IMG/VR virus record: IMGVR_UViG_3300020430_000030
Location: 1-43,453 of that record
Source: a virus
Direction: 5' to 3' (one strand)
Length of the DNA stretch: 43,453 nt
Under the pieces are notes generated by a model, which did not search any database, was not told where the DNA came from, and saw nothing but the letters and a program-made list of their open reading frames with translations. Of the stretch, positions 10,101-28,012 are shown one piece after another (the first letter of the stretch is position 1; each line of letters starts with the position of its first letter). The translations under genes and the position numbers were made by a program.

Positions 10101-11006
10101 TTTCTTTGTGATATTTTCAAGATGTTTTTTGTACTGTGCACCTGTAGAGTTTGCTGGTACATTTGGCAGGGATGCTAAAACTTGCAGCATATCTCTACGA
10201 ATCAAATTATCGTTTAAGGTGTTTGCTGGGATGTATTTATTAGAAGCGACCTTGTACACCGGGCCAGCGTATGCGTTGGATGTACCTGCGGACATATACA
10301 TCTTTGCTGTGCTAACACGTTGGCCATCCCTGTAGACAGCTTCAACAGTTGTATTGCCACATGAAGAGAACAACATCTCTTTTGACAAATTTAAGCTATA
10401 ATCGTTAGCCATCTGCTCAACATCAAAATATACATTTGTAAAATAGGTAAGATGCTCAGGGCTTGCTGTATTAACAGCAAACTTAAACTTAAGCACTAAT
10501 TCTTGAGTCCCTGGTTCAAAGTTTTCGTCCTTGTAAAAACCTTCTAGGCCCACAATATTAGATAAAGATCTAGTTTCTACTTTTACTGTGTTGTTGTTTG
10601 GGCGATGCTTGTTAATCTCAGAAGGGACCGGAGTTACTTGACCACTTTTCAGCATCTTTGTAAATTCTTTGTTTTCGGAATGAACCAGCTGTAGGTGCAT
10701 GTACTTTACAAGATCTTGTTCATAAACCCAATTTGATTGACCGTTCTGCTTAATTTCGTCCATAAGGACCACGGTAACTTCAACTAAAAGATTTCTAGGA
10801 TCTTTTTTGACTAAAAACCCAGGATGTTTTAGCTTTTGCTTGCCTGCACGATCTTTATAAATGATAACTTCGCGTTCGTGATCAATGTGTGGATTGTTAA
10901 CACGAGGAGGCAGAGGAGAGTATGACAACTTTACTTGTCGGATACGAGGTGTTGGCAAAACACCTTGCATCATTGGCTGACCCGAAACTGGTGTTAATCT
11001 TTGCAT
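7146..11006 (-). CDS. Very large virion structural protein, function unknown
   Basis: This is a 1286-residue protein with no recognised domain. The N-terminus is proline-rich (MQRLTPVSGQPMMQGVLPTP), followed by alternating beta strands (LLVEVTVVLMDE). A helical central part (residues about 560-720) carries charged heptad-like runs such as EFLYEKIKELRKASRRIRDY. The C-terminal third is Ser/Thr/Gly-rich. There is no signal peptide or clear membrane helix. The start overlaps the end of the 347-residue gene by 13 bases and is preceded by GAGGAT inside that gene. It lies between other tail-periphery genes, so a virion role is likely; size alone cannot separate a fibre, a baseplate arm or a neck whisker. 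Confidence 0.6.
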   Translation of the reverse strand: MQRLTPVSGQPMMQGVLPTPRIRQVKLSYSPLPPRVNNPHIDHEREVIIYKDRAGKQKLKHPGFLVKKDPRNLLVEVTVVLMDEIKQNGQSNWVYEQDLVKYMHLQLVHSENKEFTKMLKSGQVTPVPSEINKHRPNNNTVKVETRSLSNIVGLEGFYKDENFEPGTQELVLKFKFAVNTASPEHLTYFTNVYFDVEQMANDYSLNLSKEMLFSSCGNTTVEAVYRDGQRVSTAKMYMSAGTSNAYAGPVYKVASNKYIPANTLNDNLIRRDMLQVLASLPNVPANSTGAQYKKHLENITKKDSDKHTKYEQVKKMLSSWKKRSPNTMSGRIYDLVHGKMKLYNNIINKASTLNVKVISNSTIKDERTIEQLSIIPNLIPQPSDEDAATVDIRNKDYNTTSATIGHKQPAARYFSPCMLTRDSMSSCRLSFVLDWYLLAVESSAHKNMIQRSSRDIQQLLFSKISLQGARLIRERIDDEKVLQQFDNHMTRDRESIVEVIAHATPQSNGMLAGHRFKKSISSTEDKRVGTFSEISLAGITSNNRRAFAARDVSVANRKTGSFRYRVELQYIDKISEFLYEKIKELRKASRRIRDYYNMSNLACNYDEANDRFSEFYISGLYKKYSFPNPDVVAAMTQQELTVMLQNGSITTAPWITPIAKYVEILQIVAALSSADATELAKKMYLELEPSFATPDSILTTVNRFESLEQQIIDMILIDEPATASYLSDNSKIVRKLTKSQTVSYLFPEVYNNKTLSNVGTKYLYYDQETEPGLAKITRNDFIKRMAEEEVRFYTNQPAGSKDAIQDMLTYRYSYIAPAHIKVGSRNLMLLNRGPALYETEQYKDMMFSISLLQAHPAARSMTMPVLNFSPGTFDPTTTADLQAAKINAAATSLLSLYGITISAQTPYLSTRLTDSDPLVEVTSILGENTLLAIRNAISSSAEESADLDDIGTIKPDMQISVADVSSIASSLVGTLASTGLQNFLGTKSAYSQVATIDMESRQKMQFAKTLEFFDIANPKNAISAQTTYQTGPESGTKIRKIPNQVKSLFLAKTNQVAPAKQWHTMEVDPIASPDTRPLFELLYFNLQKIEVLKGFSTNALNNRLMKAPIYELLTADHLNGKGQLLCKLTRYRNDTLHIGDSQLLDLPVYNQYFILDLSSNNTVASNNIAESGLYTAGGEYQTPDGTNYIGDYHIHKDKTAMTGKEMSAGEVVLTPYSKTTTDQGFAAAQLNAKMAPSMSEIQSQVVTTMITEHYTQKDVQTDYCATEDVILAVGAQDYIKLSGGSF

Positions 11007-12037
11007 TCTTCAATATCCTCATCAGTAATATTGCTGGCGTATAGGTTAAATGGTACCTCTGCTTCTGGGCAGTTTAAGTCTAGTGTTTCTAGAGAACCGA
11101 GTTCTTCGCCGGCAGACTTTAGCTGTTGATAAATAGCGCACAGAGTTTCTGTTGGAATTTCAGAATCTACTCGTACATCAAAATAGTATGAAACGTCATC
11201 CATAGATTCAGGCGTAGCCCGAGTGTCGTCATAATCAACCAAAACATTGTTGACCACGTTACTTCTTTTTTTTCTAAAATTCAATGGTCTCAACACCTCT
11301 TTTTTTGTTGGGTTCAAGACTGAGGGTGTGCTAATGCTCCCAGATACATCAACTTCCTCTACTTCAAAAATTTCAATCATAAAATTGTCATTCATGAAGT
11401 CTGTATTTTTTTCATCAATCTCAATCAATAGCTGATCGCCTACTGTGTAGAAATATGTACCGTCTTGAAACAAAGACGTAGTGTCTGTATATTCTTGCTG
11501 GGCCATTCTCATTGATTCTTGGCGAACTGGTGCTGGTGCATTTACGTCTCGTATTTGTGTTTTGTAAACGATTTCCGATCTTAGTTGCGGAATCTTTGTT
11601 GTTGGATGAGAACCCGTTGCATACTCTATAGAACCCAATAGTTCTGAGCCAAAAAATCTAATTTGCCATGCTGGAATCTCCGTAGTGTGTAGAGCAGAAG
11701 TTCCTAGCGGGGCTGATAAAGCATAATGTTTGTCTGCCACTGGCTGTACTGTTGGAACTTCACCATTTGTGCCGCGGACTTCATTGACGATTCGTTTCAC
11801 TTCGGTTTCTGCACCGTAAAAAATGTGCTGGGCTCGTAAAGATGGGGTATCTTCTTGGATTCTAGGCTCTATGTCGTTCTGATCCTCACTGTCACCAGCA
11901 TAAGCAATATCATACAGAACATTGTCATCAAAGAATGCATAGGATACTGGCTTGAATTTTCCTTTGGCCAACAAGCTCTTTCCGTATTGTGTGAGCTTAA
12001 TATCTATAACATCTTCTTTTTTATTGAAAAATGCCAT
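10994..12037 (-). CDS. Virion structural protein with N-terminal domain shared with the 304-residue protein
   Basis: This is a 347-residue protein. Residues 1-45 (MAFFNKKEDVIDIKLTQYGK, then SLLAKGKFKPVSYAFFDDNV) match the start of the protein at 3663-4577. The rest is different: a beta-rich middle with many Thr and Pro residues and an acidic, cysteine-containing C-terminus ending DEDIEECKD. The shared head may be an attachment domain that docks two different proteins to the same kind of site; that is inference. The gene starts after a 48-base gap with AAGGAACG upstream, and its end overlaps the 1286-residue gene by 13 bases. Confidence 0.65.
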   Translation of the reverse strand: MAFFNKKEDVIDIKLTQYGKSLLAKGKFKPVSYAFFDDNVLYDIAYAGDSEDQNDIEPRIQEDTPSLRAQHIFYGAETEVKRIVNEVRGTNGEVPTVQPVADKHYALSAPLGTSALHTTEIPAWQIRFFGSELLGSIEYATGSHPTTKIPQLRSEIVYKTQIRDVNAPAPVRQESMRMAQQEYTDTTSLFQDGTYFYTVGDQLLIEIDEKNTDFMNDNFMIEIFEVEEVDVSGSISTPSVLNPTKKEVLRPLNFRKKRSNVVNNVLVDYDDTRATPESMDDVSYYFDVRVDSEIPTETLCAIYQQLKSAGEELGSLETLDLNCPEAEVPFNLYASNITDEDIEECKD

Positions 12038-12085: not shown

Positions 12086-15000
12086 TTAGTAGCCACCATA
12101 CCCGTAACCAGAAAGTGGTGAGCCGACAAGCGCAAAGTCTGCGAGAGAGCCTACACCTGTCAGAGTATCTTTAAATCCGCTGTCGTAATTTCCGACGTTA
12201 ATATCAGAAAGCCCAGGGCTGCCGCCGCCAGCAACATTAATTAGAATTTCCGGTGTAGTTCCATCATCGGCCGGTTGCACAAATGGGCCGGCAGTTACAT
12301 CAACGCCTGCTAGCGGCCCAGAAGAATATCTGTCCATGTCGTACAGAATCTCCTCATTGGTAATGCCAGTTACTTCTTGAAGCGATGGGTCAAGAAGGCG
12401 TTCGGCCGGGCTGGGCGCGAACCCGGGTGTGCGACTAGGGTCCAGCATCAATCCAGACCTGTCGGCGCTAGGAAAGTCGGGAGGCTGAAGGGGGCCCGGG
12501 GTGACCTCAACACCGGAGATGGATGGACCAGAGGAGGGAGTTGAGCCTCCAGAGGAGCCAAGTCGAGGGTTTGTAGAGCCAAGCACGCCTTGACCAGGGA
12601 TTGGCGGCTTCACATATTGCCCTTGCTTCGTGGGACGACTTCCGGCGTCTCCAACCTTCAAGATTGTTGGAATGTTTTGAGGCAAGGCACTGAATTCTAC
12701 AGACGCTTTAATCTGTGCCATCTCTACAATGGAAAAGTGGTCATAAGGCCAGTTAAATCCGTACTTAGCATCAGAGTTGGAACCCAAGGTTACCTGTCTA
12801 CTTCTGGAGATCTTATCTAGCCTGTCTAGTTCTGGGGTTGACGCTATGACCTTATCGTAGTAATTTGTACTTGAGCGCTGCTTGACCTTAAATACCATCC
12901 ACTTAACCTTGTCACTCAAAGGCTTACCAGTCTTTTTGTTAGAATAACCCATTAGCTCGTTAATTAACAGGTTGTGAGTAATAGTAGAGGTAGATGTAGT
13001 AAACTTTTCAGCGCTGGGTGGCATCAAGTTTTGCCAAATGTAGGACAAATCATTCTTATCAAATGTCATGTTAAACTCAAACACATACATTGCTACTGGC
13101 TGTACCAGATTGCGATTCTTAACAAAGTCAAAAACAGGAGGGAACACATACTTGTCCATTTGTCGCACTAGTGTTCGCAAAGTATCTCCAGGCTCATCAC
13201 TCTGGTCGGATCTTCTGTATGTCTCTTCGCCCAAAATAATATCAACCATATGAGGGTCAATCTTGAAAAAGTGTCTTTGGTTGTTCTTTTCAATAAACGG
13301 AACGGCAACAACAGCTTCGCTGACTGTAATTTTATCTCTTAGGTTTCCTAGGCGCTTGGGTGTCGTGTCCATTCCCACAAAACCAGCTAGCGATTTCATT
13401 CTTTCGCCAGTATCGAGTCTTCTGTATCTGTGAAGATCGAAGGAGCCTGTAGCGTTAAACGGTGCATAGTCTGCCCCTTGTTCAACAGAGGGATGGTTTT
13501 CAAGCCATGATTTTGGAATGTCTCCAACTTCAAGCCATACGCCTTCGTTTTTGTTTGGAATTGTGCCGAATTGATGCCACATTCCTCTAGCCACAGTTCC
13601 CGATCCATAAACTGGAAGTGTGAGTAGGTCATCCGTAATCGGGCGTGGCGCAGTACCCCCCTTGTCTGCTGTTAGTGGACTAAAGTTCAACATTGGTGTT
13701 TCAAACTTAGGCTGGATGATCCATGCGGGTGAATCACCTACCGTTCTTTTAACGGAAGCTACTTGAGCGCGGCCCGTGGCTCCGACATTGCTATATGCAA
13801 AGGCCTTAACTTTGCCTAGGCCGCGCAAGTTTAAGCATGAATCAAGCTGCATGGCGTTCGCATTAATATTCTCTGCTGAATACAACGATGAGCTATGATA
13901 CCCATTTGGAATAAATTGTGGAGACTTGTTACCTGTTGAAGCGGTAACATGCTGGAATCCAGGGTCTACTCTTCTTTGTACAACTGTTACAGAGTCTAAG
14001 ATCTCACCCAAAGAATACGTTTTTGAAACTGTCGGTTTAAAAATAATGTCACACCACGCTTCGCCGTGCATATAAGGGGGAGTATATGACCAGTTGTACC
14101 CCTGTAGACTATCAAGCGTACCAGAAGCAGTACTCCTAAAACTTCCTGTGCCAAAGAGGACACGCGGACACTCATCGGTACCATAAGTGCTATATTGGCC
14201 GCCTACAAGGTTGATATATTCTTCCGAGATATTCATGCCATATGAAGCAGTGAGCTGTCTAGCAATAGCAAAAGGATAGGTAGTATTGGTGGGAGAATTC
14301 GTATTAACGTTGTTAACGTGGCCGGCGTCACCACTTGTTTTATTTCTTATCGTATGCGTGCGTCCAAGAACCGGATATCCAAATGCTGAAGAGCGAGAGT
14401 ACATTGTAAAAGTTTCGTGTAGCCCAATATCATCTTGCGGGTCTTGTGGCACATCATATGGCAGGGCGCGTAGTGCAGCAACTCGTTCGGCAGAATAGTC
14501 TCTCTGGCGGTTTAGTGAGCGATACATTTTAATTCTCATTCCATATACATCGCCAGCATTTGCATATAGGTTTAGTTCGTCTTGAGGTCTGGAGGCAATT
14601 GAGGTAAAGCTTCCGTTTCTCAAGAAAAAGTCGGGAACTGAAGCTAGGAAGTTATTTGTCATCAATGAGTAGATGTCATCCCCAGTACCGTCCCAAGAAG
14701 CAGTTACATCAAGAGACGCTGACGGATGAGCAGTATAATCGTATAATTTAATATCTTTAAGATAATTTTCAGGACTAATAATTGCTTCGAATGGGATTCT
14801 CTTATCCCAACGGCCAACATTAACCGCAGGCTCTACTACTGTTGAAATAAAAATAGCAGTAATTATACCATCGGCGTCTGCGTTGGTGGTAAAGGTAGCT
14901 GTTGATTCTTTCAAGCCGGGCAAATCCTTCAGATCTGCCTTTACTGTGTAATAGCCGGGCTTATATCCCGGGAAAGACCCGGTTGGATCAAACACACCAG

Positions 15001-18000
15001 AATATGCTAGGCCATTTGAAATGCCACCAACAGACGCGGATGCAGGCGTCATTGCTTGTTGAATTGCAAGTTTTCTATAATCTTCTTTTAATTTGAAGCG
15101 GCCATTCTTTAATGGGACAATACTCTCAACAGTAGAGAGTGGTCTTTTTGATAATGTTACCTTGGGCGCAGATGCACTGTATACATCATCAAGGTAATTA
15201 TGTAGTTCTTGGTCAAGCTCAGGATTTGGCATGCCGAGGCCCCAGTAATCCGAGGCTCCGCATCTTACTTTATAAATCTTTGAGCCGGTTAGCATTACTG
15301 GCCAGTCACACGCAATACCAGACTTGATTGTATTAAACATGATACCCGGAGCGAACAGTGGCGTGATAAAGTTTCTAAATGCAAGATCCGTATTTACTCC
15401 AGCAGTTTCACCATAAATTGGCTCATCGAAGTTGGTGCTTCGGTCCCCATTTGGATCTAGTAGACCTGGGCCTGAATACTTAATGTGCTGCCCGTATGAA
15501 GCGGAAAGGGCCGCGGCAAGTTGTAGTGTTCGCGTTGCAGGATAAAACCCATCGTATGGATTAAATTTCAAATATGCGTTGCACTGCAGTGTTAATGCTG
15601 ACGGCTCGTAGTGCTCTTCGAGATCATTTTTTAAGACCTCAAAATGCTTCAAGAAATCAGTTGTACCGTAAACCTTAAAGAAGTTTTGTTCGGCGCTGTT
15701 CGCGGCTTGAGCGTCTGAGCCTGACGGCATACCGACCATTCTAAAGAGTGAGTTCTGTTCCGCCAAGAAGTCGCTTCCTTTATTAAGGATGTAATCTTTT
15801 AAGTGGTCTTCAATTCTAAATTCAGGAACAACTGTATAATCTTTTGCTTTTGTCCTTACGTCTTTCTTAAATTCATCATAATCACTTTGCCACGGAGTAG
15901 ATGATTGTGAAACAAATTTAACTGTTTGTACATTTGCGGCGAGTGCTCTTGTTGTGTTAAGTAAGTTTCGCTCTTCAACCTTTCCTGCTAGCGTTGGTGC
16001 ATCCCAGGCTGTTTGCGTTGCAAAGATAGGAATATATCCAAGCCAGTTACGTTCATCGCTGAGCGGAAGCGGAGTAGACGGATTAGCGGTATTAGCATCT
16101 GAGAAGTGTGGGCCATCAGGATATAGATTAGGATCTTCTGTTACTCTAATACCTAAAATTTCTTGGCCGCGAGAACCAGATGATGTTACAAGTGGCGGCT
16201 GTGTTGGGGAACTAATTGATGAAGTTGCATGAAGCATTTGTGGCATAGCATATTGTGGCCCCGCTTCGGGCTGTAGACGAGCGGTACTCGCAGAGACAGA
16301 TCCACTAGAATGTGTAAACTTGCCTCCTGACCACTTTAGCGGATAGCTCCATCTATTAACAAGCTCACCTTCGCCTGCTCCGAAAAGTCGACTCTGCTCA
16401 TCAACATGACCCCAACGAAGATAGAATCTCTGATTAGTAATAGATTTACTATCATCGACAAGATTGTTCATTGAGCCCGTAGAGGTGTCTAATGGCCAAA
16501 TACTAGCAGCAGACTCATCAGAAGCCCATTGAGCTAGCTTTCCGTATGTTGTTCTACCATGAATCGTTGGCCCAGCTCTGTCAAGTCGATTTTGCTGTCC
16601 ACCAATCCAGAAATTATTTTGATAATCAGCTTTTTGACGTACCTCGTTCAAGTACATGTTTTCTTCAGATGGGTAAATAATCTCAGAATATTCAAACTTT
16701 TTAATCTCAGTTACAGGAGAAATTGACGTCTCTAGGGCGCCCCGGGTGTACATACCTTTAACTTCTTCGTATACGGCTGGCGTCGTCTTGAAGAGATTGA
16801 AATCTTTATCAATCTTCTTAATGTTGAAGTAGTTCATTTCGTTACCAAAAGGAGTTAAAATATCAACAGGTAGCGAGCGAACGATTGTCTTACCAAACTT
16901 ATTATTAATTGGAGTTGAAACAGAGACACTTGATCGCAATGGGAAGAACTTTGTAGTTAGTGGCGTAACACGATTAACACGGTGGAGTAAACCATGTCGT
17001 GGCCTAATTGTTCGCAATCCAGTAGAAGAACTGATCGCAAGCTCAGGAGCATCTGGTCGAATGTAAGTCCAGCTATTTGTACGTCGCGATTGGTATCTTA
17101 CGAGTGGGTGGGTGGCGCCGCGAATCTGCTTCCATGTGGGCCAACCATAAGGACCTTGTCTGTGAAGAATCAGAGCGTTGAACACCAATGGCGCGCTGCT
17201 GGTTGTTGGAGTATTGTCGAGCGGCTTCGATAAGAACGTGCTATTTATATAAGTTGATGTTTCGTACTCAGTCCCAGGGTTGCTTGGGGCCAAGTCGGTG
17301 CCTGCAGCGTGGCCTAATACATTGTCTGCCGCGTCGGACGGCTCTACCACATGGCTGTTCATTCCCGCAAAGTCTGTAAATAAAATTGAACCCTGGTCTC
17401 TTGCCGCTAGTCTGCTGCTAACTCCATCTTTTGCTACACCAAACTCACGTTCGCCGTGGCCTTCCGGCTCAAGCACAGAGTGATAATCGCTTGCCGTAAT
17501 AAACGGAATTGAGTTTGAGGCAGTTGGGAAGCCTTTCGAATAATAACTTGGCGCTACAGATTTGCGAATCCATGAATAATTTGTGTGGTTTCTTGGAAGA
17601 GTATGCTGAATATAGTAGTTGTCGTACTTGCTCTCATCATGAAACTGGTAATTATCACCATAAGTATACACCGCGTTTGAAGCTGCAGCGATATTAACTG
17701 AGGCGTATGTTGACCGCGTAATCTCGGTTACAGAGCCCATTGAGCCAAGGTGGTTGTTTGCCAGTACGTCTTTTACTAACGCACCAGAAACGTGTAGCGC
17801 GGCGTCGTTAGCCGGATCCGACGTGTGATCGCCCATGCGCCACCATGATACAAGATGGTCTGTAACCTTTGAACTAAATGTAGTGCCATCTAACGGGTGT
17901 GCTCCATTTGATTCTGTAAGGTTTGGCATCTGTCCTCTTGCATAAATTTGCCTAAATTCAACGGAACCAAGAGCTTCTTTCCACATAGCCATTTCATGGA

Positions 18001-21000
18001 TTGTTGTGTCTTTAATAGTTCCCCATGTTCCTCCTACGTTTCCGGCGCCAACATTTATATAACTACCGTTAGAAATTTGATTCATCGTGGCTGCGGGGCT
18101 GACATGAGATGTAGACAGAGTTTGTTCATGGTTATCGACATAAAGTAGTGGAACATTGCTCGCATCTGTACCATCATAACTTACAATAATATTGTGTAAT
18201 TGAGAAGCTGTAATTGCATTCGGCGCCGTTTGCCAGTGCTTATGCTTTGTTGTGGTATTATTGAATACTTTAAGATTGATTTTTTCATTGGCATCAACCG
18301 TTACAAGAAAAACAGGCCTATTAGAAGCTATTGACTTCTGATGAGTATCGCCTAGCGAGAACAGTGCGGCTTCATTGGGTTGCTCTTGATTAAAGGTAAC
18401 CCACGTTGCAACTGTAAATTTTGTAGTACCCATATTGCTTATGTTGGGGTTTTGCAATTTAAACGTATCACCACTGGTGCCTGCTGACCCAGGTCGGAAT
18501 GTAATTCCGGTGGCACTACGAACACCTGTTGTGGTAGTCGTCACTGTCTCTGTTCTATCAGTTATAAAACTATTTTGTCGGGTGCGATTTCTGTGTACCT
18601 TGTGAAACCCAGGATGTTCCTCTAGAAGCTGGCCTGGCTGAATTGAAAAACTATCAATGTCGTAATGTCGTGCCGAGTCGCGGCCAAAGCGGCTTGTCCA
18701 GCGTGTCAAGTGAGTACGAAGGCCCCATGGTTCACCATGAATATCACTAACACGGTAAATACTGCCAACGGCGCCGGTTTGGAACAGCGTACCAGAAAAC
18801 TCGGCATTTGTCATCAGGCTTGATGTGGCAATTGAAGCAGATGTTGCAATGTATTGGTGTTCTCCACGAACAAGCCTGTTTCTAAAAGTGATGACGTCAT
18901 TTGGGGACATTTCTTCGTGAGCAGGATCCAAATAGCCGCGTGAAATAGATTCAAAGCCACCGGGGGCGCTGAACCTAGTAACGATTACTGTTTCGTTAGT
19001 TGTACGAGTTGGAAGAGTTGCATCCTGTATACCTGATGTATCGTAATCACGAACCCATTCGCGGCCTTCATCCATCATTGGCTTACGTGGGCGAATCATG
19101 TCAATTTCTGACTTGGTTAGTACTGCTTGATCGGGCTCTCTCAAATACAAGTTGTTTACAGATCTTGGAGAGGTTTGAACAATTTCGTAGTTGCGTCTGT
19201 AGTTTCCAATTGGGCCATGATCGCGAGCGTCTGAAATAACTGTGTCAACCGAAGCAGTCGTCTGTAGAATATTCTTAATGTTGACCGGGCGCTTAACAAG
19301 TTCTTCTCTGTACCTTGTTGCTTTTGGTGCATGGTAGTTTAGGATGATCGGATCTTTACCACCAGACATGCCAGTAACTGTTAGCGGAACACCGGTAAGT
19401 GAAGTTGTAATGGCCACATTACCTACTGTTCCTAGGATTGCATTACCAATAGAGCCAGGGGCACCATATCTTGTGTTTTCAAGGTTTACATTTACACCAT
19501 CGGTGCTGGCGTTTACATACAAGCCTGATACCGAGTTTACGGCATCTCGCAGAGCTATGGCGCGTTGATCGGCATTGCTGGCGCTTGAAATATCGACAGC
19601 TGTTCGTCCTGCTGTGACGCTTCCGTTTGTATCAAATTCAAAAATTGTAGCGTTAACACCGTCACTAATTGTAATAGTGTCTCCATCGGCGGGCGCAGGG
19701 GAATTAGCAAAAGCAACCACTCCAGTAGCAGCGACAGGATCGCGGCCAATGTCAGGGAAAGGATAGTCTTGTGCTACAAAACCAAATGCGCCAGTGAGAG
19801 GCGTAGGGTTGCCCGCTTTACCAATCAAGATTCTCCACTCTTCAGGTCGGTTTGCAAAGCTGTCAGTACCCGGGTTCAGCCTGACGTGTCGAGACTGCTT
19901 ACCACCGACATACTTGTTAGTGAATGGCCCTTGAAGTGGCGCCTCTTGATCACGGCCATAGGTATCATGATGAATGTTTGTAATCGTAGAGCCGGTCAAG
20001 AAGCCACCCCTTGTAGAACCCAGGCCTTCAGTTCCGATCCATTCAGCGTTGAATCCGCTGTCGACAGAACTTGAAAGAATACGGGCGGGAACAGCCTTGG
20101 CAATCGTAGTTACTGCATATGTGTTATCATACAATTGGTCGTATGTTTGTGCTTTACCGTAGATCGCTTCGCCCTTGTAAATCTTTTTAGTATTAAGAGC
20201 ATCATTATCGTTAACATCTTTGAATTCTTTAATCTCTCTGCCATCTACAACGATAACATTTGTTGGAATATCAGGCATGTTGTTGCCCAACAAAACAAAA
20301 GAAGATGAGACCGTTGATGGGCCGCCGACTTCAAGAGCGGCTTTTGCTACGTCAGCGCGATTGTTACGAGCCAAATTAGTGCCAGAGCGGTATTCAGGCA
20401 CTTCATCTATTTGGAACCTGTATGGTTTAGTAAACCTTCTGAGCGCGTATGTGCGGCCAGAATATGTTGTGCCGTCTGGTTTTGCCAGTGAGTTTTGATC
20501 TGGGCTTCGGTGTGTAACTAGGGCCTTACGAATCTCTTCTTTATCGGAGTTTACCTCTTCTGAAGCGTCTCCTTCTAAGGGCAGGTTGCCCGCGCCAGTA
20601 CGTTCGGCACGTTCTTTCCAATATACAGCGTTATCAGATTGATCTCCAACAACAGGATGGTGGCCATGTTTCCAATCGTATGTAAGCTCTGTAACGCCAC
20701 GCAAGCCAGCTTCTGGATCGCTCTGCTTAAACTCAATTGTTGGGAACTTAGTCCAGTACTTGTTGCGCTCCAACACATGGGATTCGACCATATTGTGCAA
20801 CTCTTCTGATACCTCGGCCGAGGCAGGAATAAGCTGTTGAATCACAGTTGTGACTGCCGAGTCAATCCATTTATAGAACTCGATATAGCGGTCTAAATCA
20901 GGAGTATTTCCAATTCTTTCATAGAAAAGCTGTCTTAGCTTACCCAAGTCTTTGTATTCTTGACGATATCTATTGACCGGATCTCCGATCAGGTTATTAA

Positions 21001-24000
21001 AATCAACAACAGATGCAAACATATTAAGCATTTCTTCAGAGATTGTCTGATACATACTCTTTTCAATCGCATAATAATGCTGAATGATACTGTGTTCTCT
21101 CGTAAACTTGTCGTCGTCTTGAGTTAAAATCTGAACCGCATCGCTTGTATTTAGCACTTCTGGGCCGGTTTGTCGGGCTGTTGAGATATATTCAACGTCT
21201 ATCGGCGGGACGTCTCCAGATTCAGGAGGCAAAAAGCTGTCTCCCTTACCACTGTGCTGATTCATAATAATAGGGGTTAACCAACCATATCTGTTTTCGC
21301 TTACAATGTCGGAGGAGCCAGAGGAATAATCATCAACAAAAAAGAATGAGTCACTAGTTGATGGATCTGCTGGATCAGAACTGGCTGAAACCACATTATC
21401 AAACGTCCAATTTAGGGCAAGAGTATCGATCTTAGGGACGTAGATTCCGCCCATCTCCTTAGTATAAAGGTTCAAACTCTTATAAGGGTCAGTAATACCG
21501 TAGTTTTCGGGATCTTTAGCATGAGAAATCAAGTCCTCATTCTCTAAAAACGAAGCCCAGTATTTAACTGACGATGCTTTTACGTCTGAGTTTGTTATGG
21601 TTGTGCCTGTATAATTTTGTCTATCCGCTCCAACATATAGACGCTTGCTAGAACGAAGGAAGTTTCGGCCGACATGGCCCTCTACTGTTCCGCTAACATG
21701 AAACTCGTTTTCTACAATTCCACCCTCAATATTCACACCATAAAAATGTACATCATAGGTTGGGCTAATATTGGAGCCTGTCGTGATGTTAGTGACTGGA
21801 ATTGTCGGCGCAACCCTTACAGACAAACTCCAGCGCTTGTTAGAATACGTTTCTAAGTAAATAGACGAAGTCAATTCAGGCAGCATTCCGGCTGAAGAGG
21901 TCAACATAAAGTAGACGTGTTGCGACTCCTCAGAAGGGCGAATGGCCAAAACTTGGAAGTTAGAGTAATCCGGGGATGGTACTGTTAGAGAATCACCATT
22001 GGCGGAATGCATTCCAAACAGCGAAGACTTAGTAAAAGGCGTTGGAAAGTAGCCAACATCCTTAATTGTTAGCTTTTCTGGGAAAATAAAGTCTGCTTCT
22101 GCTGTCATTCCAAGCAGTTCTTCGTGGCCTAGACTTGCCGTCACTGTCGTTACACCAGAACCAGTAATGTAGCCTACAGAATTAGCATTGTTAGGGTCTG
22201 CAAACTGGTATACGTTTGTATCAAACTTATCGGGATCGTTGAAGGTAACAAACTTTCGGCGTGTACTCTTTGTTCTGGTGTTTTGCTTTAGTTCGTACGT
22301 TGTGTTTGTGGAGTACAGGTTTAGTCTGACCAACTCTTCGTCTACGCCAAAACATCTAATAATGTTTCTGATTGATTTTTCAGTACCCTTCGACTTGTAA
22401 ATGTATGTCAAGTTGTTGTAGATGTTTTGGTAAATAAGGTTTTTAACTTCAGTAATGTCCCTAGTATAGTTCCTATCTTCATCTCTCGCAGAAATGGATT
22501 CTAGAACATTTGCCTGTACAAACATGTGAGGCGCGTTCATGCCAACACTTTCTAGTAGGTGAGTGGCGAATGGGTATGGCTTTGCTGAGGCCGTTAGATA
22601 CGAAGTTGCGCGGAGCTTTGGAAGGGCGCCAATAAGATGGTGAATTGTATCAAAATAGCTTCCCATTAACTGCGTGACGTTTGTTAGCGAGCCGTCACCA
22701 GGGCTAGTTTCATCCATTTCCCTAATAAACTCGGGAATAGAATTTAAGAAGTAAGCATTGTTGTTATCATCCCATGCTGAGCCGGAGGCTTTTAACTCTG
22801 TTGTTAGCGAAACAACAGTCGGGTGATCCTTGTAAATAATAGGATCTTTATACTCACTAGGAGCCGCTAAAGATTCCACAATCGCTGAGCCGGTGTTTCT
22901 TGAAGTACTTCCGGGGTACCCAACCCAAGTACCATTTGAAATGCGACCTGAGTAGTCAAGGATGCGTTTGTCAGTGTCGTCATCTTCTACGATGCCTTCG
23001 TTAAATTTAAAATAGACGCCTAGGCCAGTATTGTATGGCTCATTATTGGTGCCGCCGCGAACTTGGGTAAACCAATTGCGGCCGATTTGTTCAGATGTTC
23101 TTTTGGTAGTCCAGTACCTAAACTCGTCAAGAGAGCCACTTAGCAGACCATAACCCAAGTTACCACCGAGGGTAGTTCCCGTCTGTAGAGCGCCTAGGTT
23201 GGCTCGTAAGCCGCCGGTAACCTCTGTTAAAGCGTCAGCAGTCGTTTGATCTTGTGTGCGTAATAAGTCGCCATTCTGATAGAATCTGAACGTGGTTGTA
23301 GTACCAGAAGACTCTAAACTTAGTGCATAATGATTCCAGCCATTTCCTACAACATTAGATGATGCCCAGCCAGCCGGGGCAACTGCCAAGTCTGATACTG
23401 AGGTGGAGCCGGAAATTAGCGTTACGCGAACTGGGTCTGTGGCTGAGGATGTTAGCTCAATGAGCAGGCGGCCGTATGAATCATCATCTTGAGACTTTCC
23501 ATTCCAAAGATCGAACACAACCTCGCGCTTGGTATTGCTAGCGTTAGAAGCAGCTTTGTTCAACCAAAATTCAACTGTTACACCGTTGGTAGGAGACAGT
23601 CTTAAGTTTGATAGCCGTGAGCCAGGATTTGTTCCTTGATTCAAGCCAGTTAACGCATAGGGGTCTGTCTGTAGTTTGTTGGCATAATCAAAGACGCTAT
23701 GTATCGGCTGACCCGTTGATGATAAAATATCATATTGAATATGGCTTCCAGTTTGTGGGCCACCAAAAACTTGAATATACTCGTTTGAACTTACTGGGCC
23801 ATAAGAGCCAGAGATTGCACCTGTGTAAGTTGCAGATTTACCAAGGGTGACATACCCGTTTGTACGAGGATACTGATTGTCTAAAACGTGCTTTGTTAGA
23901 TAATTTAAACGAAGAGTGTATTCTTTGATCTCGTGGTCAGAGCCATCATACGGATACTCACGATAAATTGCTTTAATAGCATCATCGTAATACTTTTCAG

Positions 24001-24181
24001 CGGAGCCAAAATATGCAAAGTTAGAAGCGGACTCATAGTTGATAAACGGTTCGAATCTCTCTTTGTCGCGGAGGGCTGCATCCAGATACTCAATAGATTC
24101 CACCTTATCTTTGGTGATATTCTCTGCATCTTCTGATGTTAGTATTTGTTGTGGCTTCTCAAATAAATCTTTGATTCCCAT
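12086..24181 (-). CDS. Giant tail/baseplate protein with two LamG-like domains and a putative gpI/gp7-like wedge segment
   Basis: This 4031-residue protein comes from a 12.1-kb gene, far above usual phage protein sizes. In order: an N-terminal helical region; a LamG/concanavalin-like domain at about 190-420 (VTVEFWL, GWNHYALSL, GSLDEFRYWTTKR, GVYFKFNEG); a helical stretch at about 570-620 with the K598-G599-T600 motif inside IYKSKGTEKSIRNIIRCFG, resembling the KGT segment of P2 gpI and T4 gp7-type wedge proteins; a helix bundle at about 1077-1120 (KLRQLFYERI, YKWIDSAVTTVIQQLIPAS); a beta module near 1484-1612 (ADGDTITISDG); a second LamG-like domain at about 1893-2120 (FTVATWVTF, LHNIIVSYDG, LVSWWRMGD); then a long beta-rich region and a Gly/Pro/Ser-rich tail from about 3845. 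It lies two genes after gp6, where T4 encodes gp7-gp12. Wedge plus receptor-binding functions in one chain are inferred. Confidence 0.75.
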   Translation of the reverse strand: MGIKDLFEKPQQILTSEDAENITKDKVESIEYLDAALRDKERFEPFINYESASNFAYFGSAEKYYDDAIKAIYREYPYDGSDHEIKEYTLRLNYLTKHVLDNQYPRTNGYVTLGKSATYTGAISGSYGPVSSNEYIQVFGGPQTGSHIQYDILSSTGQPIHSVFDYANKLQTDPYALTGLNQGTNPGSRLSNLRLSPTNGVTVEFWLNKAASNASNTKREVVFDLWNGKSQDDDSYGRLLIELTSSATDPVRVTLISGSTSVSDLAVAPAGWASSNVVGNGWNHYALSLESSGTTTTFRFYQNGDLLRTQDQTTADALTEVTGGLRANLGALQTGTTLGGNLGYGLLSGSLDEFRYWTTKRTSEQIGRNWFTQVRGGTNNEPYNTGLGVYFKFNEGIVEDDDTDKRILDYSGRISNGTWVGYPGSTSRNTGSAIVESLAAPSEYKDPIIYKDHPTVVSLTTELKASGSAWDDNNNAYFLNSIPEFIREMDETSPGDGSLTNVTQLMGSYFDTIHHLIGALPKLRATSYLTASAKPYPFATHLLESVGMNAPHMFVQANVLESISARDEDRNYTRDITEVKNLIYQNIYNNLTYIYKSKGTEKSIRNIIRCFGVDEELVRLNLYSTNTTYELKQNTRTKSTRRKFVTFNDPDKFDTNVYQFADPNNANSVGYITGSGVTTVTASLGHEELLGMTAEADFIFPEKLTIKDVGYFPTPFTKSSLFGMHSANGDSLTVPSPDYSNFQVLAIRPSEESQHVYFMLTSSAGMLPELTSSIYLETYSNKRWSLSVRVAPTIPVTNITTGSNISPTYDVHFYGVNIEGGIVENEFHVSGTVEGHVGRNFLRSSKRLYVGADRQNYTGTTITNSDVKASSVKYWASFLENEDLISHAKDPENYGITDPYKSLNLYTKEMGGIYVPKIDTLALNWTFDNVVSASSDPADPSTSDSFFFVDDYSSGSSDIVSENRYGWLTPIIMNQHSGKGDSFLPPESGDVPPIDVEYISTARQTGPEVLNTSDAVQILTQDDDKFTREHSIIQHYYAIEKSMYQTISEEMLNMFASVVDFNNLIGDPVNRYRQEYKDLGKLRQLFYERIGNTPDLDRYIEFYKWIDSAVTTVIQQLIPASAEVSEELHNMVESHVLERNKYWTKFPTIEFKQSDPEAGLRGVTELTYDWKHGHHPVVGDQSDNAVYWKERAERTGAGNLPLEGDASEEVNSDKEEIRKALVTHRSPDQNSLAKPDGTTYSGRTYALRRFTKPYRFQIDEVPEYRSGTNLARNNRADVAKAALEVGGPSTVSSSFVLLGNNMPDIPTNVIVVDGREIKEFKDVNDNDALNTKKIYKGEAIYGKAQTYDQLYDNTYAVTTIAKAVPARILSSSVDSGFNAEWIGTEGLGSTRGGFLTGSTITNIHHDTYGRDQEAPLQGPFTNKYVGGKQSRHVRLNPGTDSFANRPEEWRILIGKAGNPTPLTGAFGFVAQDYPFPDIGRDPVAATGVVAFANSPAPADGDTITISDGVNATIFEFDTNGSVTAGRTAVDISSASNADQRAIALRDAVNSVSGLYVNASTDGVNVNLENTRYGAPGSIGNAILGTVGNVAITTSLTGVPLTVTGMSGGKDPIILNYHAPKATRYREELVKRPVNIKNILQTTASVDTVISDARDHGPIGNYRRNYEIVQTSPRSVNNLYLREPDQAVLTKSEIDMIRPRKPMMDEGREWVRDYDTSGIQDATLPTRTTNETVIVTRFSAPGGFESISRGYLDPAHEEMSPNDVITFRNRLVRGEHQYIATSASIATSSLMTNAEFSGTLFQTGAVGSIYRVSDIHGEPWGLRTHLTRWTSRFGRDSARHYDIDSFSIQPGQLLEEHPGFHKVHRNRTRQNSFITDRTETVTTTTTGVRSATGITFRPGSAGTSGDTFKLQNPNISNMGTTKFTVATWVTFNQEQPNEAALFSLGDTHQKSIASNRPVFLVTVDANEKINLKVFNNTTTKHKHWQTAPNAITASQLHNIIVSYDGTDASNVPLLYVDNHEQTLSTSHVSPAATMNQISNGSYINVGAGNVGGTWGTIKDTTIHEMAMWKEALGSVEFRQIYARGQMPNLTESNGAHPLDGTTFSSKVTDHLVSWWRMGDHTSDPANDAALHVSGALVKDVLANNHLGSMGSVTEITRSTYASVNIAAASNAVYTYGDNYQFHDESKYDNYYIQHTLPRNHTNYSWIRKSVAPSYYSKGFPTASNSIPFITASDYHSVLEPEGHGEREFGVAKDGVSSRLAARDQGSILFTDFAGMNSHVVEPSDAADNVLGHAAGTDLAPSNPGTEYETSTYINSTFLSKPLDNTPTTSSAPLVFNALILHRQGPYGWPTWKQIRGATHPLVRYQSRRTNSWTYIRPDAPELAISSSTGLRTIRPRHGLLHRVNRVTPLTTKFFPLRSSVSVSTPINNKFGKTIVRSLPVDILTPFGNEMNYFNIKKIDKDFNLFKTTPAVYEEVKGMYTRGALETSISPVTEIKKFEYSEIIYPSEENMYLNEVRQKADYQNNFWIGGQQNRLDRAGPTIHGRTTYGKLAQWASDESAASIWPLDTSTGSMNNLVDDSKSITNQRFYLRWGHVDEQSRLFGAGEGELVNRWSYPLKWSGGKFTHSSGSVSASTARLQPEAGPQYAMPQMLHATSSISSPTQPPLVTSSGSRGQEILGIRVTEDPNLYPDGPHFSDANTANPSTPLPLSDERNWLGYIPIFATQTAWDAPTLAGKVEERNLLNTTRALAANVQTVKFVSQSSTPWQSDYDEFKKDVRTKAKDYTVVPEFRIEDHLKDYILNKGSDFLAEQNSLFRMVGMPSGSDAQAANSAEQNFFKVYGTTDFLKHFEVLKNDLEEHYEPSALTLQCNAYLKFNPYDGFYPATRTLQLAAALSASYGQHIKYSGPGLLDPNGDRSTNFDEPIYGETAGVNTDLAFRNFITPLFAPGIMFNTIKSGIACDWPVMLTGSKIYKVRCGASDYWGLGMPNPELDQELHNYLDDVYSASAPKVTLSKRPLSTVESIVPLKNGRFKLKEDYRKLAIQQAMTPASASVGGISNGLAYSGVFDPTGSFPGYKPGYYTVKADLKDLPGLKESTATFTTNADADGIITAIFISTVVEPAVNVGRWDKRIPFEAIISPENYLKDIKLYDYTAHPSASLDVTASWDGTGDDIYSLMTNNFLASVPDFFLRNGSFTSIASRPQDELNLYANAGDVYGMRIKMYRSLNRQRDYSAERVAALRALPYDVPQDPQDDIGLHETFTMYSRSSAFGYPVLGRTHTIRNKTSGDAGHVNNVNTNSPTNTTYPFAIARQLTASYGMNISEEYINLVGGQYSTYGTDECPRVLFGTGSFRSTASGTLDSLQGYNWSYTPPYMHGEAWCDIIFKPTVSKTYSLGEILDSVTVVQRRVDPGFQHVTASTGNKSPQFIPNGYHSSSLYSAENINANAMQLDSCLNLRGLGKVKAFAYSNVGATGRAQVASVKRTVGDSPAWIIQPKFETPMLNFSPLTADKGGTAPRPITDDLLTLPVYGSGTVARGMWHQFGTIPNKNEGVWLEVGDIPKSWLENHPSVEQGADYAPFNATGSFDLHRYRRLDTGERMKSLAGFVGMDTTPKRLGNLRDKITVSEAVVAVPFIEKNNQRHFFKIDPHMVDIILGEETYRRSDQSDEPGDTLRTLVRQMDKYVFPPVFDFVKNRNLVQPVAMYVFEFNMTFDKNDLSYIWQNLMPPSAEKFTTSTSTITHNLLINELMGYSNKKTGKPLSDKVKWMVFKVKQRSSTNYYDKVIASTPELDRLDKISRSRQVTLGSNSDAKYGFNWPYDHFSIVEMAQIKASVEFSALPQNIPTILKVGDAGSRPTKQGQYVKPPIPGQGVLGSTNPRLGSSGGSTPSSGPSISGVEVTPGPLQPPDFPSADRSGLMLDPSRTPGFAPSPAERLLDPSLQEVTGITNEEILYDMDRYSSGPLAGVDVTAGPFVQPADDGTTPEILINVAGGGSPGLSDINVGNYDSGFKDTLTGVGSLADFALVGSPLSGYGYGGY

Positions 24182-24192
24182 AAAACTACTCT

Positions 24193-25722
24193 CTATTCTT
24201 CAATTCTAAACCTAAACTTATTTGGCTGGACTACCCAGGCTGATATCGCTTGATCATAGAAACTAAAATCTAGAGTATATGAGAAGCCTGCTTCTAACAT
24301 TCTGAAATCGATGTCGCAATAGTTTCCAGATACATCATGTGACATTAGCGTGTGCATGTCAGAGCCTGTTCCAAATGGAATGATTTCAAAGTCATCCGCG
24401 TCCCTTGTGATACGGTACGATGCGCTATGAATAATTGTGTTTTCAATAGTATTGTTTGCCCTTGTATAAATAGTTGGGCTCCAATCTTTTTCACGAGCAT
24501 ACAGGCGGATCCTGTCTTCATCTGTGCGATGATATTTCTTTTTAAGATTTGGCACAGCAAGTACATAATTTATGTTATTACTCATAATTGAAGAGTCGGC
24601 TGATCGGGGGATGATTGAGCCAGTAAAAAATTGTGTTGTTGTTTCGCTAGTAGTGTCTTCAATATGCCATACATCCTTGATGGTAGAATGCGCGGTCGTT
24701 GAGCCTGTCATTGAAAGCGAAACAGAGTAAATGCCAGTTGTTGAAGTTTGACTAGCCGTTGCATACACATTACCGGCTGCGGCTACATTGCCGCCTTTGG
24801 CTAGCAAAAATGGATTGGTGGCTCCAGTGGCCTCGTACAATGCGACCACAACTTGCTGGTCAGCGTCTAGAGGGATCGAACGCAAGCGGCCGCGGACAAA
24901 ATTGTAAAAATACAATGTATTTAAATTGTCACTTTCAGTTGCCAAAGAACTACTGTAGTAGAAATTGCCTCTATCATCTTTTACCGCCGAATCCCAACGG
25001 GCTTCGATGACTGGTCTATAAATAAAATGTTCCGAGGTGCGGCCCCAAAACTTCTTGGTGTAATAAGACCGGAAGTTGCTTGTATCGGATAACTGAGGAT
25101 CTAGTCGAACAATAACTCCATAGTTATTTTTTGTTCCCGCAATCCATTTTTCAACAAGCGGGGTTACATTTACTTCCATGTCCTCAACTCCTCGGTCAAA
25201 AGACGCTGTAACTCCTGACGAATCGTCATAGTCCCAGTCGCCGCCAGGGGTAGTCCATGTGGTACCATATGAAGCACTAATCCAATCAGAGCCTGGGCGG
25301 CCGTCGTTTGTGTCGGTAAAGTTATCCATGTCCAAACCTTCGCCTTCTTCCCAGTCTCGGTTTAGAATTGCAGCAACGAGTTTTAGATTTCTTGGAGTTG
25401 TTTGAGAATGCGGGGCATTATAAAGCTTAAGATAAAAATTTACGCTACCTGATGCGGGGATCTTGCCCAGTACTCTGTCCTGTTTTATTGAGCGCATGCC
25501 TTCAGCGTACACTTCGCTTCCTGTTACAGGAAACTGAATTAGGAAGCGCATTGACTCGTTTGCTGCTTCACCCGTACCGGATGTTTTTTGTCCATAGATT
25601 CTAAACGTTTCTAATATATCAGCTGCGCCCATGTTAGAACCAGTTGCACGAGTCGTCAAATTAGTCTCATAGGCATTTGTAATTGTGTTATCTTTAGTAG
25701 CCCAGTATCTTCTAATAGCCAT
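24193..25722 (-). CDS. Beta-rich virion protein, possibly with a DNRLRE-like domain
   Basis: This 509-residue protein follows gp6 directly (one-base TAATG overlap). The N-terminus is MAIRRYWATKDNTITNAYET. Residues about 60-245 have the rhythm of a DNRLRE-type beta domain: an early statement of strands (MRFLIQFPVTG), NFYLKLYNA, DWEEGEG, then NVTPLVEKWIAGTKNNYGV followed by IVRLDP, near a conserved W and RPVIEARW. Such domains occur on extracellular and virion surface proteins. The second half has an unrelated beta pattern ending in FRFRIEE. Its position between gp6 and the giant gene is where T4 places wedge subunits, so a baseplate role is plausible. The DNRLRE assignment is by pattern only. 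Confidence 0.55.
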   Translation of the reverse strand: MAIRRYWATKDNTITNAYETNLTTRATGSNMGAADILETFRIYGQKTSGTGEAANESMRFLIQFPVTGSEVYAEGMRSIKQDRVLGKIPASGSVNFYLKLYNAPHSQTTPRNLKLVAAILNRDWEEGEGLDMDNFTDTNDGRPGSDWISASYGTTWTTPGGDWDYDDSSGVTASFDRGVEDMEVNVTPLVEKWIAGTKNNYGVIVRLDPQLSDTSNFRSYYTKKFWGRTSEHFIYRPVIEARWDSAVKDDRGNFYYSSSLATESDNLNTLYFYNFVRGRLRSIPLDADQQVVVALYEATGATNPFLLAKGGNVAAAGNVYATASQTSTTGIYSVSLSMTGSTTAHSTIKDVWHIEDTTSETTTQFFTGSIIPRSADSSIMSNNINYVLAVPNLKKKYHRTDEDRIRLYAREKDWSPTIYTRANNTIENTIIHSASYRITRDADDFEIIPFGTGSDMHTLMSHDVSGNYCDIDFRMLEAGFSYTLDFSFYDQAISAWVVQPNKFRFRIEE

Positions 25723-27530
25723 TACGCAACAGTCCCCTTAATGTCATTTTGTGCATACTTTAATTCTGCAGAGCAATTTAGTGGAATCTTAATGTATCTA
25801 CCGTCTGCAGATTTGTGTTCATTAAGATCAAGAAAAGTGTCAGAGTAAGCTCCGCCGCGAGCAATTTGTACTTTCACACTCTTAACATCTACGACTCCAT
25901 CAAGGTCGTTCAGACGTTTCTGGATATCTGAAATGTAAATCGGTTCTCCCATGGCCAAAGGTTGGTTAAACATGTCACTAACCGCTACAATGCATTGATT
26001 TAGTACTGCGTGCTTGTCATGATCGCGATGCGATACGACGCTAAAATCTACTTTAAAGTTCACAATTTTGCCAGATAAAATATCAATTGTATCATTAATC
26101 ATTCTATATTGGTTTAGCCACATTTTTAAGTTTGATTTTAGTGCGTCGTTGCAGTACGAAAGTTTGCCATTTTCATCCTCAGCTAAAACGTACAAATTCA
26201 AGTTTCTTTTGAGCGAGTCAGGATCTCTCATAATATTACAACGCTTAATTTTCCCATACTTTGGATCCATCGAATACACAAGAGACATATAATCATTTTG
26301 AGTTACGGCCCTGTTTTGTGTAGCGTAGTTATCGTAAACGTGACGCTTGATATCATCAGATGTGGGTAATGTGATATCTCCAACAATTGGCTCTTCATTA
26401 AAACACTCAATTGAGTTCTGTACGTCTTTAATTTTTTGTTGTGTCAGAATTCTTTCGTCTTTAAAAACAAAATTTGAAAAGGTCACTTTATCAACCATTC
26501 CAACACCAGCGTTAGCTGTATCGGCAGTATTGATTCTATAGGTAATATGTACGCTAGTGTTCGCGGGGCTGATTCCTAGCTTGTCCGTCGACAACAAATT
26601 AGATGGATCAAACGAAACTTCAGAATTATAAGTTTTTCCAAATCTGTCAAGTGCAGTGTTTAGTGGCTCAACAACAGAAGGCGCTGAAGCTTCTGAATCG
26701 GACCCGTGCCCAAATTGAACATAAAGAGTATCTACATCAGATTCAAGGATATACCTTCTGGGTACCGAGAAGGGCCTCAATACTGAAGGAACTCCCGAGG
26801 CTCTTGCTTCTTTGTTCACTACGTCTTTGTAGATGACATCTTGAGAAAGATATTCTACTTGATAGTACTCATGACCTTCATCATCTCTTACACTAAGAAC
26901 TTCTGAGACAATAGAAAGCGGACCTACTGGAAGTTTCAAGAACTTTTCAAATGTGCCCACCGTTTCTGTTCTGCGAACAAGTTCTCCTGAAATTACCTTC
27001 CCATGAGCTTTGATAGCGTAGTGTGTTGGCTGGCCCGTACTTTGGCTTCGGCGGGCGGCTACAATCTCGTTAAAGGGTTCTGAGAAGTCTATGTCCTCTA
27101 CAAGAATAAAGCTGGCTTTTGTTTGTGATGATCTTAGTTGGGCGCCGGCCTTGAGTACTGGCACATAATTCATGTCTACGCCCATTCCTGTTGCAGAGGC
27201 AGGAACAACAATATAAATTGCGACGGCTCCGGTAGACGATGGCACGCCTTTCCAACGATAGCCAAGAGACTTGGCATGACGTACAACGTTTTGATATTCA
27301 ATAGCGGTGTCAAGAAAGCTTTCGTTAGCTTGATAATCTAAGTAAAAAGATAATTGGTCACCAACGTAAGCTACTGTGTCCAACAACATTGAACCAAAGG
27401 AACTATCATTAAAATCTTTGTATGTATCAGGATAATAGACTTTCGCCTGTTCAACTAAATCTTCTTTAATTGTAGTGAAATCACGACTAGTGTAATTAAT
27501 TCGGCGTGTATATCTCTTATTTTTAGACAT
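25722..27530 (-). CDS. 6: Baseplate wedge protein, T4 gp6-like / baseplate J family
   Basis: This 602-residue protein is close in length to T4 gp6 (660). The N-terminus carries the hallmark of the family: NYTSRDFTTIKEDLVEQAK, then a YPDTYKDFNDSSFGSMLLD stretch and VAYVGDQLSFYLDYQANESF, matching the gp6/baseplate J N-terminal helical domain. Later regions hold a beta sandwich, DDIKRHVYDNYATQNRAVTQ followed by NDYMSLV (typical of J-like proteins), and a C-terminal part with GEPIYISDIQKRLNDLDGVV. In T4, gp6 dimers form the ring around the hub and start sheath contraction. It is preceded by gp25, as in T4, P2 and related contractile systems. The ribosome binding site is TTGGAGACTAACGA before the ATG, at the end of a 42-base gap. 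Confidence 0.93.
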   Translation of the reverse strand: MSKNKRYTRRINYTSRDFTTIKEDLVEQAKVYYPDTYKDFNDSSFGSMLLDTVAYVGDQLSFYLDYQANESFLDTAIEYQNVVRHAKSLGYRWKGVPSSTGAVAIYIVVPASATGMGVDMNYVPVLKAGAQLRSSQTKASFILVEDIDFSEPFNEIVAARRSQSTGQPTHYAIKAHGKVISGELVRRTETVGTFEKFLKLPVGPLSIVSEVLSVRDDEGHEYYQVEYLSQDVIYKDVVNKEARASGVPSVLRPFSVPRRYILESDVDTLYVQFGHGSDSEASAPSVVEPLNTALDRFGKTYNSEVSFDPSNLLSTDKLGISPANTSVHITYRINTADTANAGVGMVDKVTFSNFVFKDERILTQQKIKDVQNSIECFNEEPIVGDITLPTSDDIKRHVYDNYATQNRAVTQNDYMSLVYSMDPKYGKIKRCNIMRDPDSLKRNLNLYVLAEDENGKLSYCNDALKSNLKMWLNQYRMINDTIDILSGKIVNFKVDFSVVSHRDHDKHAVLNQCIVAVSDMFNQPLAMGEPIYISDIQKRLNDLDGVVDVKSVKVQIARGGAYSDTFLDLNEHKSADGRYIKIPLNCSAELKYAQNDIKGTVA

Positions 27531-27545: not shown

Positions 27546-27573
27546 TGATAAATAGCTCTGGTTTTATAAATAC
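27546..27573. promoter_or_regulatory. Paired ATAAATA elements in the gp25-gp6 gap
   Basis: The 42-base gap between gp25 and gp6 carries two plus-strand copies of ATAAATA (27548-27554 and 27566-27572); the second lies in TTTTATAAATAC. The core matches the T4 and cyanophage late promoter element but on the strand opposite the genes. In gene orientation it reads GTATTTATAAAACC and GCTATTTATCAG. Similar sequence precedes the 304-residue gene. The role is unproven. Confidence 0.3.
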
Positions 27574-27965
27574 TACGGCGAAACAGTTATTTCATCTACA
27601 ATTCCATGACCATATGAATATGTTATTGAGATAGAAAGTTTGTTTTCTTCAATATCTGATAGCATACTGTTAGCGGGAGTATCCAGTGCGCTAGCAAACG
27701 ATATGTTTTCAATCGTAAGAAAAGACATGTATCTGAGAGTTTGACTTTTAATTCTGTTTTCAATATGCCCAAAAACATCCCTTGTGAGATTTTGAAATAA
27801 GTATTTCTTCAGTCCCACTCCAAAGTCTGGATCCATTGTTCGTTCGCCCGGCTCAGTCATTAACAAAATTAAAAAATCTTGCTTGACAGCCTCTTCCATG
27901 CCTTCAACTAATAAAAATCCATTTAGACCGCCGGCAATTAAAGGCAGTGTTGCATCAAAACCCAT
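27573..27965 (-). CDS. 25: Baseplate wedge protein, T4 gp25 / GPW family
   Basis: This 130-residue protein is almost the same length as T4 gp25 (132). It shows the family signature: a helix with VEGMEEAVKQDFLILLMTEP, then GERTMDPDFGVGLKKYLFQN, a conserved loop ending in a beta strand, then a helix (FGHIENRIKSQTLRYM) and a final IENISF strand. gp25 is the lysozyme-fold wedge protein that joins gp6 at the core of the contractile baseplate, with no enzyme activity. It lies directly upstream of gp6, as in most contractile systems. It has AGGAG seven bases before the ATG, overlapped by one arm of an inverted repeat. Confidence 0.95.
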   Translation of the reverse strand: MGFDATLPLIAGGLNGFLLVEGMEEAVKQDFLILLMTEPGERTMDPDFGVGLKKYLFQNLTRDVFGHIENRIKSQTLRYMSFLTIENISFASALDTPANSMLSDIEENKLSISITYSYGHGIVDEITVSP

Positions 27966-27975
27966 CGCTATTCTC

Positions 27976-28012
27976 CTAAACTAAATACTCGCTTTTTTAT
28001 TTTATAGTTTAG
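27976..28012 (-). promoter_or_regulatory. Inverted repeat over the stop of the giant gene and the gp25 ribosome binding site
   Basis: CTAAACTA at 28012-28005 (minus-strand reading) pairs perfectly with TAGTTTAG at 27983-27976, with 21 bases between. The first arm contains the TAA stop of the 2634-residue gene. The second arm runs into AGGAG, the ribosome binding site of gp25. As RNA this eight-base-pair stem would partly cover the gp25 start signal, and a ribosome finishing the upstream gene would open it. There is no U tract, so it does not look like an intrinsic terminator. Confidence 0.45.

Follow-up and report, generated by a model that had tools for sequence, protein, structure and literature searches.

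A giant protein with LamG domains and a putative gp7/gpI-type wedge core at the baseplate locus of uncultured phages

The baseplate locus

The window, that is, the whole stretch of DNA analysed here, is a virus record of 43,453 bases from a marine contractile-tailed phage that encodes a protein of 4031 residues next to recognizable baseplate genes:

27573..27965, minus strand: gp25-type sheath initiator, 130 aa (PF04965, E 6e-12)
25722..27530, minus strand: gp6/gpJ-type baseplate wedge protein, 602 aa (phrog_219, E 1e-19)
24193..25722, minus strand: 509-aa protein directly upstream of the giant gene (66/66 relatives)
12086..24181, minus strand: giant ORF, 4031 aa plus stop, ATG start, predicted mass 444.6 kDa, laid out as a putative gp7/gpI-like wedge N-half, a LamG-rich middle and a C-half without a known fold
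10994..12037, minus strand: 347-aa protein directly downstream of the giant gene (9/9 testable relatives)

An earlier, sequence-only reading had described an uninterrupted frame of 4031 residues filling 28% of the window, which is exactly what is found (12086-24181; 12,096 bases; 27.8%). Its position is right and its strand needed correction, as the frame is open on the minus strand and the plus strand is full of stops there. The order gp25, gp6, 509-aa protein, giant is found in all 66 relatives with enough upstream sequence. The gene thereby occupies the gpI/gp7 position after gp25/gpW and gp6/gpJ, with the 509-aa gene lying between gp6 and the giant. By both gp6 and terminase, Flavobacterium phage immuto and Microcystis phage Mel-JY01 are the closest isolates; their proteins of 1265 and 1336 aa sit at the same position in the locus.

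Several other genes of the window deserve mention in their own right. A second very large ORF (2634 aa; 28009-35913, minus strand) lies upstream of gp25; one relative (L003) encodes a counterpart no shorter than 2070 aa, and there is no match in phage records. At 37007-38260 (minus strand), a Peptidase_M15/VanY-type domain ends a baseplate-region protein that, going by this domain, is possibly a tail-tip peptidoglycan enzyme. Two tail-operon proteins (3663-4577 and 10994-12037, minus strand) start alike, with MAFLDNSGDIILDAVLTDTGRFRLAKG and MAFFNKKEDVIDIKLTQYGKSLLAKG, and are possibly paralogues, and a protein among the tail genes (1817-2494, minus strand) has a sub-threshold DnaJ domain (E 3e-4). 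Sugar genes at 40416-43444 (minus strand) and in L126:10367-12688 encode a MannoseP_isomer cupin, a PhyH dioxygenase, a polysaccharide pyruvyl transferase and CTP_transf_3; beyond the window, these are joined by NeuB (E 1e-77) and by a weak MptE-like match. Together, these look like a phage-borne nonulosonic acid pathway.

A genuine coding frame in a large family

The giant ORF is a genuine coding frame. Specifically, an IMG/VR contig of 92,221 bases (3300030330_005162) carries an identical giant ORF (100%), while the first 3.1 kb show 10 mismatches and one gap relative to the window, so that the two are not copies of one file. N and C content also share a single frame in about 40 distinct relatives. 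Joining of the frame by an assembly error, which would have undone the earlier reading, was checked and is ruled out by the second assembly and these relatives. Compared with L122, the nearest different relative (4753 aa), differing sites amount to 0.37, 0.27 and 0.65 at codon positions 1, 2 and 3, respectively, and the excess at third positions is present in every module, although it is least clear in the tail. The second assembly and this third-position bias therefore establish that the frame is coding.

A two-sequence profile search found relatives of the giant protein in at least 425 viral contigs, 80 of which were kept for detailed analysis. N and C parts share one frame in 44 of them and form two adjacent genes in 9; the C part is absent within the available sequence in 4, and 23 run off the contig. 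Complete one-gene forms (n=42, window protein included) range from 2823 to 4753 aa, with a median of 3174, so that 4031 aa is large yet ordinary for the family, whose longest member (4753 aa) is found in a record of 203,859 bases. The bacterial and archaeal species genomes searched contained no relative, and scans of the whole giant protein returned no match in Pfam at 0.1 and none in PHROGs. Distant relatives, such as those in Immutovirus and Mel-JY01, retain a core of mostly 1.2-1.7 kaa, and no C-half is detectable in their available sequence. Four distant core relatives (among L137-L216) match Zincin_1 metallopeptidase, with a best E of 2e-4.

A modular protein with three LamG domains

Residue-by-residue coverage of the window protein by its relatives yields a module map, to which structure models and family profiles add the following features, all on the minus strand:

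Residues 1-1470: N block, in nearly all relatives
Residues 16-110, 23852..24136: N-terminal helices, from the structure model and conserved columns
Residues 200-399, 22985..23584: LamG/pentraxin domain 1, in all relatives scanned
Residues 454-640, 22262..22822: helical gpI/gp7-like core, within the best conserved stretch (77% against L122)
Residues 594-632, 22286..22402: KGT motif (Tail_P2_I, PF09684, E 0.0098, 10.8 bits)
Residues 642-933 (713-933 by HMM), 21383..22258: LamG-like domain 2, in all relatives scanned
Residues 1040-1140, 20762..21064: helical segment, ending LIPASA...VESHVLERNKY
Residues 1480-1610, 19352..19744: DGDTITI beta module, in few relatives (about 7/79)
Residues 1921-2122, 17816..18421: LamG domain 3, in the variable middle
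Residues 2170-3840 (about), 12662..17674: conserved C-half, in 9 relatives largely encoded by its own downstream gene
Residues 3840-4031, 12089..12664: Gly/Pro/Ser-rich tail, not conserved and private to the window protein

The model of residues 1-1186 (pLDDT 72.6) shows helices at 16-110, 454-610 and 1043-1117 and beta domains at 200-436 and about 640-875. The conserved N-terminal helices carry the sequence SASNFAYFGSAEKYYDDAI...YPYDGS, and the helical segment at 1040-1140 is common to the Mel-JY01 and Immutovirus cores. Residues 1610-1790 are present in most relatives and residues 1800-2170 are variable, after which conserved blocks resume and continue to about 3835. Two features named from the sequence alone were recovered, namely the DGDTITI-type module, with its motif at residue 1499, and the Gly/Pro-rich tail, which contains 17% G and 12% P as compared with 7.4% and 5.4% elsewhere. 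Between the window protein and L122, conservation is highest in the stretch that contains the gpI-like core, whereas the region of the third LamG domain is among the least conserved (35%).

The LamG-like domains of that reading are present as well, but they number three (200-399, 713-933 and 1921-2122) rather than two, as counted with an HMM grown from the giant-protein family in a scan of 55 proteins. The first two domains are found in 55/55 of these; a further zero to three per protein occur only beyond them, in the variable middle, and LamG number rises with length among one-gene forms (Spearman 0.65, not corrected for kinship). Their place among LamG and concanavalin-like domains follows from a jelly-roll fold together with profile matches: Foldseek searches of the N model return pentraxins and laminin G domains (best E 5e-7, a pentraxin), PF13385 matches 8 of 12 relatives (best 4e-58), and the family HMM agrees. 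The three domains make receptor or surface binding by the giant plausible.

A gpI/gp7-like core

The likeness to wedge subunits is centred on residues 454-640. A Tail_P2_I search of five phage records, including the window, gave its sole match inside the giant ORF, at residues 594-632. This match lies under the curated cut-off (10.8 versus 20.6 bits), and the giant protein is therefore called gpI/gp7-like rather than a member of Pfam Tail_P2_I. More distant relatives provide a bridge. The proteins of immuto and Mel-JY01 align to the giant family (E 4.5e-12 and 4.7e-13), as does an alignment of 44 distant relatives (E 1.6e-16), which in turn matches the P2 gpI family around the KGT motif (E 5.9e-4). 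This match scores 31.1, whereas none of 200 column shuffles scores above 23.2; its hhalign probability is low (29%). Neither control, the C-half or the reversed profile, matches the P2 gpI family. Tail_P2_I is also the Pfam family with the most matching members in this alignment (7/44).

Other comparisons add little to this likeness. A direct hhalign comparison with T4 gp7 stays at chance level (E 0.29) and falls outside the core, and searching PDB sequences with the N and C profiles returned nothing relevant. Of the comparisons proposed in the earlier reading, made here by sequence profile, the one with P2 gpI gave a weak alignment and those with T4 gp7, gp10 and gp12 found no similarity. The Foldseek search of the N model is dominated by LamG matches, which mask the gpI core, and most of residues 523-598 have a pLDDT below 50, so that the model does not confirm a gpI fold in these helices. 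The profile comparisons support homology to gpI, if weakly, and residues 454-640 very likely form a core of the gpI/gp7 kind.

A C-half encoded in one gene or in two

In 9 close relatives, the C-half is a gene of its own with its own ATG, directly after the N-half. Since relatives encode the halves as separate genes, a two-part fusion of an N-terminal wedge protein and a C-terminal partner is the supported reading of the giant gene. The tree of the N block requires at least four changes, in either direction, between one-gene and two-gene forms (three partial loci being counted as split). The break points differ among lineages, and no common cleavage site is thus implied. Read-through of TAG was considered as a cause of the split genes and dropped, because the second ORF lies in another frame in 6/9 cases and has its own ATG, and because TAG serves as a normal stop codon in the window.

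The model of residues 2720-3840 (pTM 0.75, mean pLDDT 68.5) has no fold match in the PDB; its matches come from BFVD alone and are uncharacterised viral proteins (E 1e-37 to 1e-73). A tblastn search with the C-half found no match in 50,697 phage records.

A model of the giant protein

Taken together, the giant is probably a gp7/gpI-type wedge subunit of a T4-superfamily contractile tail that is expanded by LamG domains and carries a fused partner. The baseplate wedge role first suggested from the sequence is backed by gene order, by the gpI-type KGT motif and by the homologues that Immutovirus and Mel-JY01 carry in the corresponding position; the 509-aa protein encoded between gp6 and the giant, like the sub-threshold Tail_P2_I match, tells against it. 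Specifically, we infer that the gpI-like core (roughly 454-640, with 1040-1140 perhaps closing it) would pack with the neighbouring gp6-type protein to form the baseplate wedge. The LamG/pentraxin domains, inserted around and after the core, would face outwards and present lectin-like surfaces on the baseplate rim, two of them fixed and others gained or lost in the middle, where they could meet host surface sugars or proteins. The C-half, a separate protein in some relatives, may constitute an outer, peripheral part. A bolder extension, which is offered tentatively and seems doubtful, would make the C-half a new baseplate fold; joined to the gpI-like core in a single chain, it might amount to an almost complete wedge arm, with modules swapped via LamG insertion and repeated gene fission or fusion.

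It is unlikely that the giant is a fibre or adhesin at the periphery, docked on the baseplate while another protein is the wedge subunit, and that its KGT likeness reflects convergence or a shared docking motif. While several LamG domains, a variable middle and a sub-threshold gpI match would suit such a protein, no other gpI/gp7 candidate was found near gp6, the best conserved part is the gpI-like core and not a tip (77% versus 35% in the third-LamG region), and much shorter relatives retain the core at the same locus. It is highly improbable that, as the sequence-only reading had proposed, one chain stands in place of T4 gp7 to gp12 and so unites wedge, arm and short fibre. The size of the giant and the separately made C-half of some relatives speak for such a fusion, but hhalign comparisons of the N, middle and C family profiles with T4 gp8, gp9, gp10, gp11, gp12 and wac all gave E above 0.05, the C-half is without a PDB fold match, and the operon continues downstream with more large genes (347, 1286 and 838 aa). 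Least probable of all is a polyprotein in which a phage protease would separate the N-half from the C-half close to the gene boundaries of relatives; the halves that relatives make as separate proteins speak for it, and the differing break points speak against it.

If the giant is indeed a wedge subunit, the enlarged wedge group is widespread and gains and loses LamG domains at one place. The family would thereby offer a way to study how these myoviruses recognize their hosts, as well as a natural experiment in which virion proteins are joined and split.

Comparison with known systems

In the wedge core, the gp6 dimer is joined by subunits of the gp7 type, to which peripheral parts are attached (PMC10457771, PMC8894135); these subunits have been described as a hotspot of re-engineering (PMC8894135). 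Their sizes vary, from 242 aa in XM1 gp17 to 1032 aa in T4 gp7 (PMC10457771), and the family described here would stretch this core baseplate part to 2800-4750 aa in uncultured phages. Like P2 gpI and T4 gp7, the giant follows gp25- and gp6-type genes, and it shares the aligned KGT-motif helix with the P2 gpI family. In contrast, it is 23 times as long as P2 gpI and four times as long as T4 gp7, and it has LamG inserts and a C-half, the latter found in neither.

Immuto gp109 (YP_010114574.1, 1265 aa) and Mel-JY01 WWT39511.1 (1336 aa), both annotated as hypothetical, share the homologous core and the locus order; unlike the giant, neither has a detectable C-half, and most of the LamG-2 region is missing from immuto gp109 in its alignment to the giant family. 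The main text of the Baltic Flavobacterium phage paper mentions neither immuto nor mass spectrometry. The C-half model resembles BFVD entries from marine viruses (e.g. A0A0F7LAZ6 and A0A516MAV8) to which no name or function is assigned.

Two further systems offer functional parallels. Vp4 Gp119 is likewise a wedge protein with sugar-binding-type domains, in its case a carbohydrate-binding module, and its binding to host cells has been shown (PMC11406892); it differs in its length of 831 aa, in being another wedge component (BW3) and in CBM folds other than LamG. The gp7-like region of AlgoCIS Alg12 similarly forms an exposed, variable platform for fibres (PMC8894135), whereas Alg12 combines gp7-like and gp6-like parts in one chain, with no LamG array described in the available part of that source.
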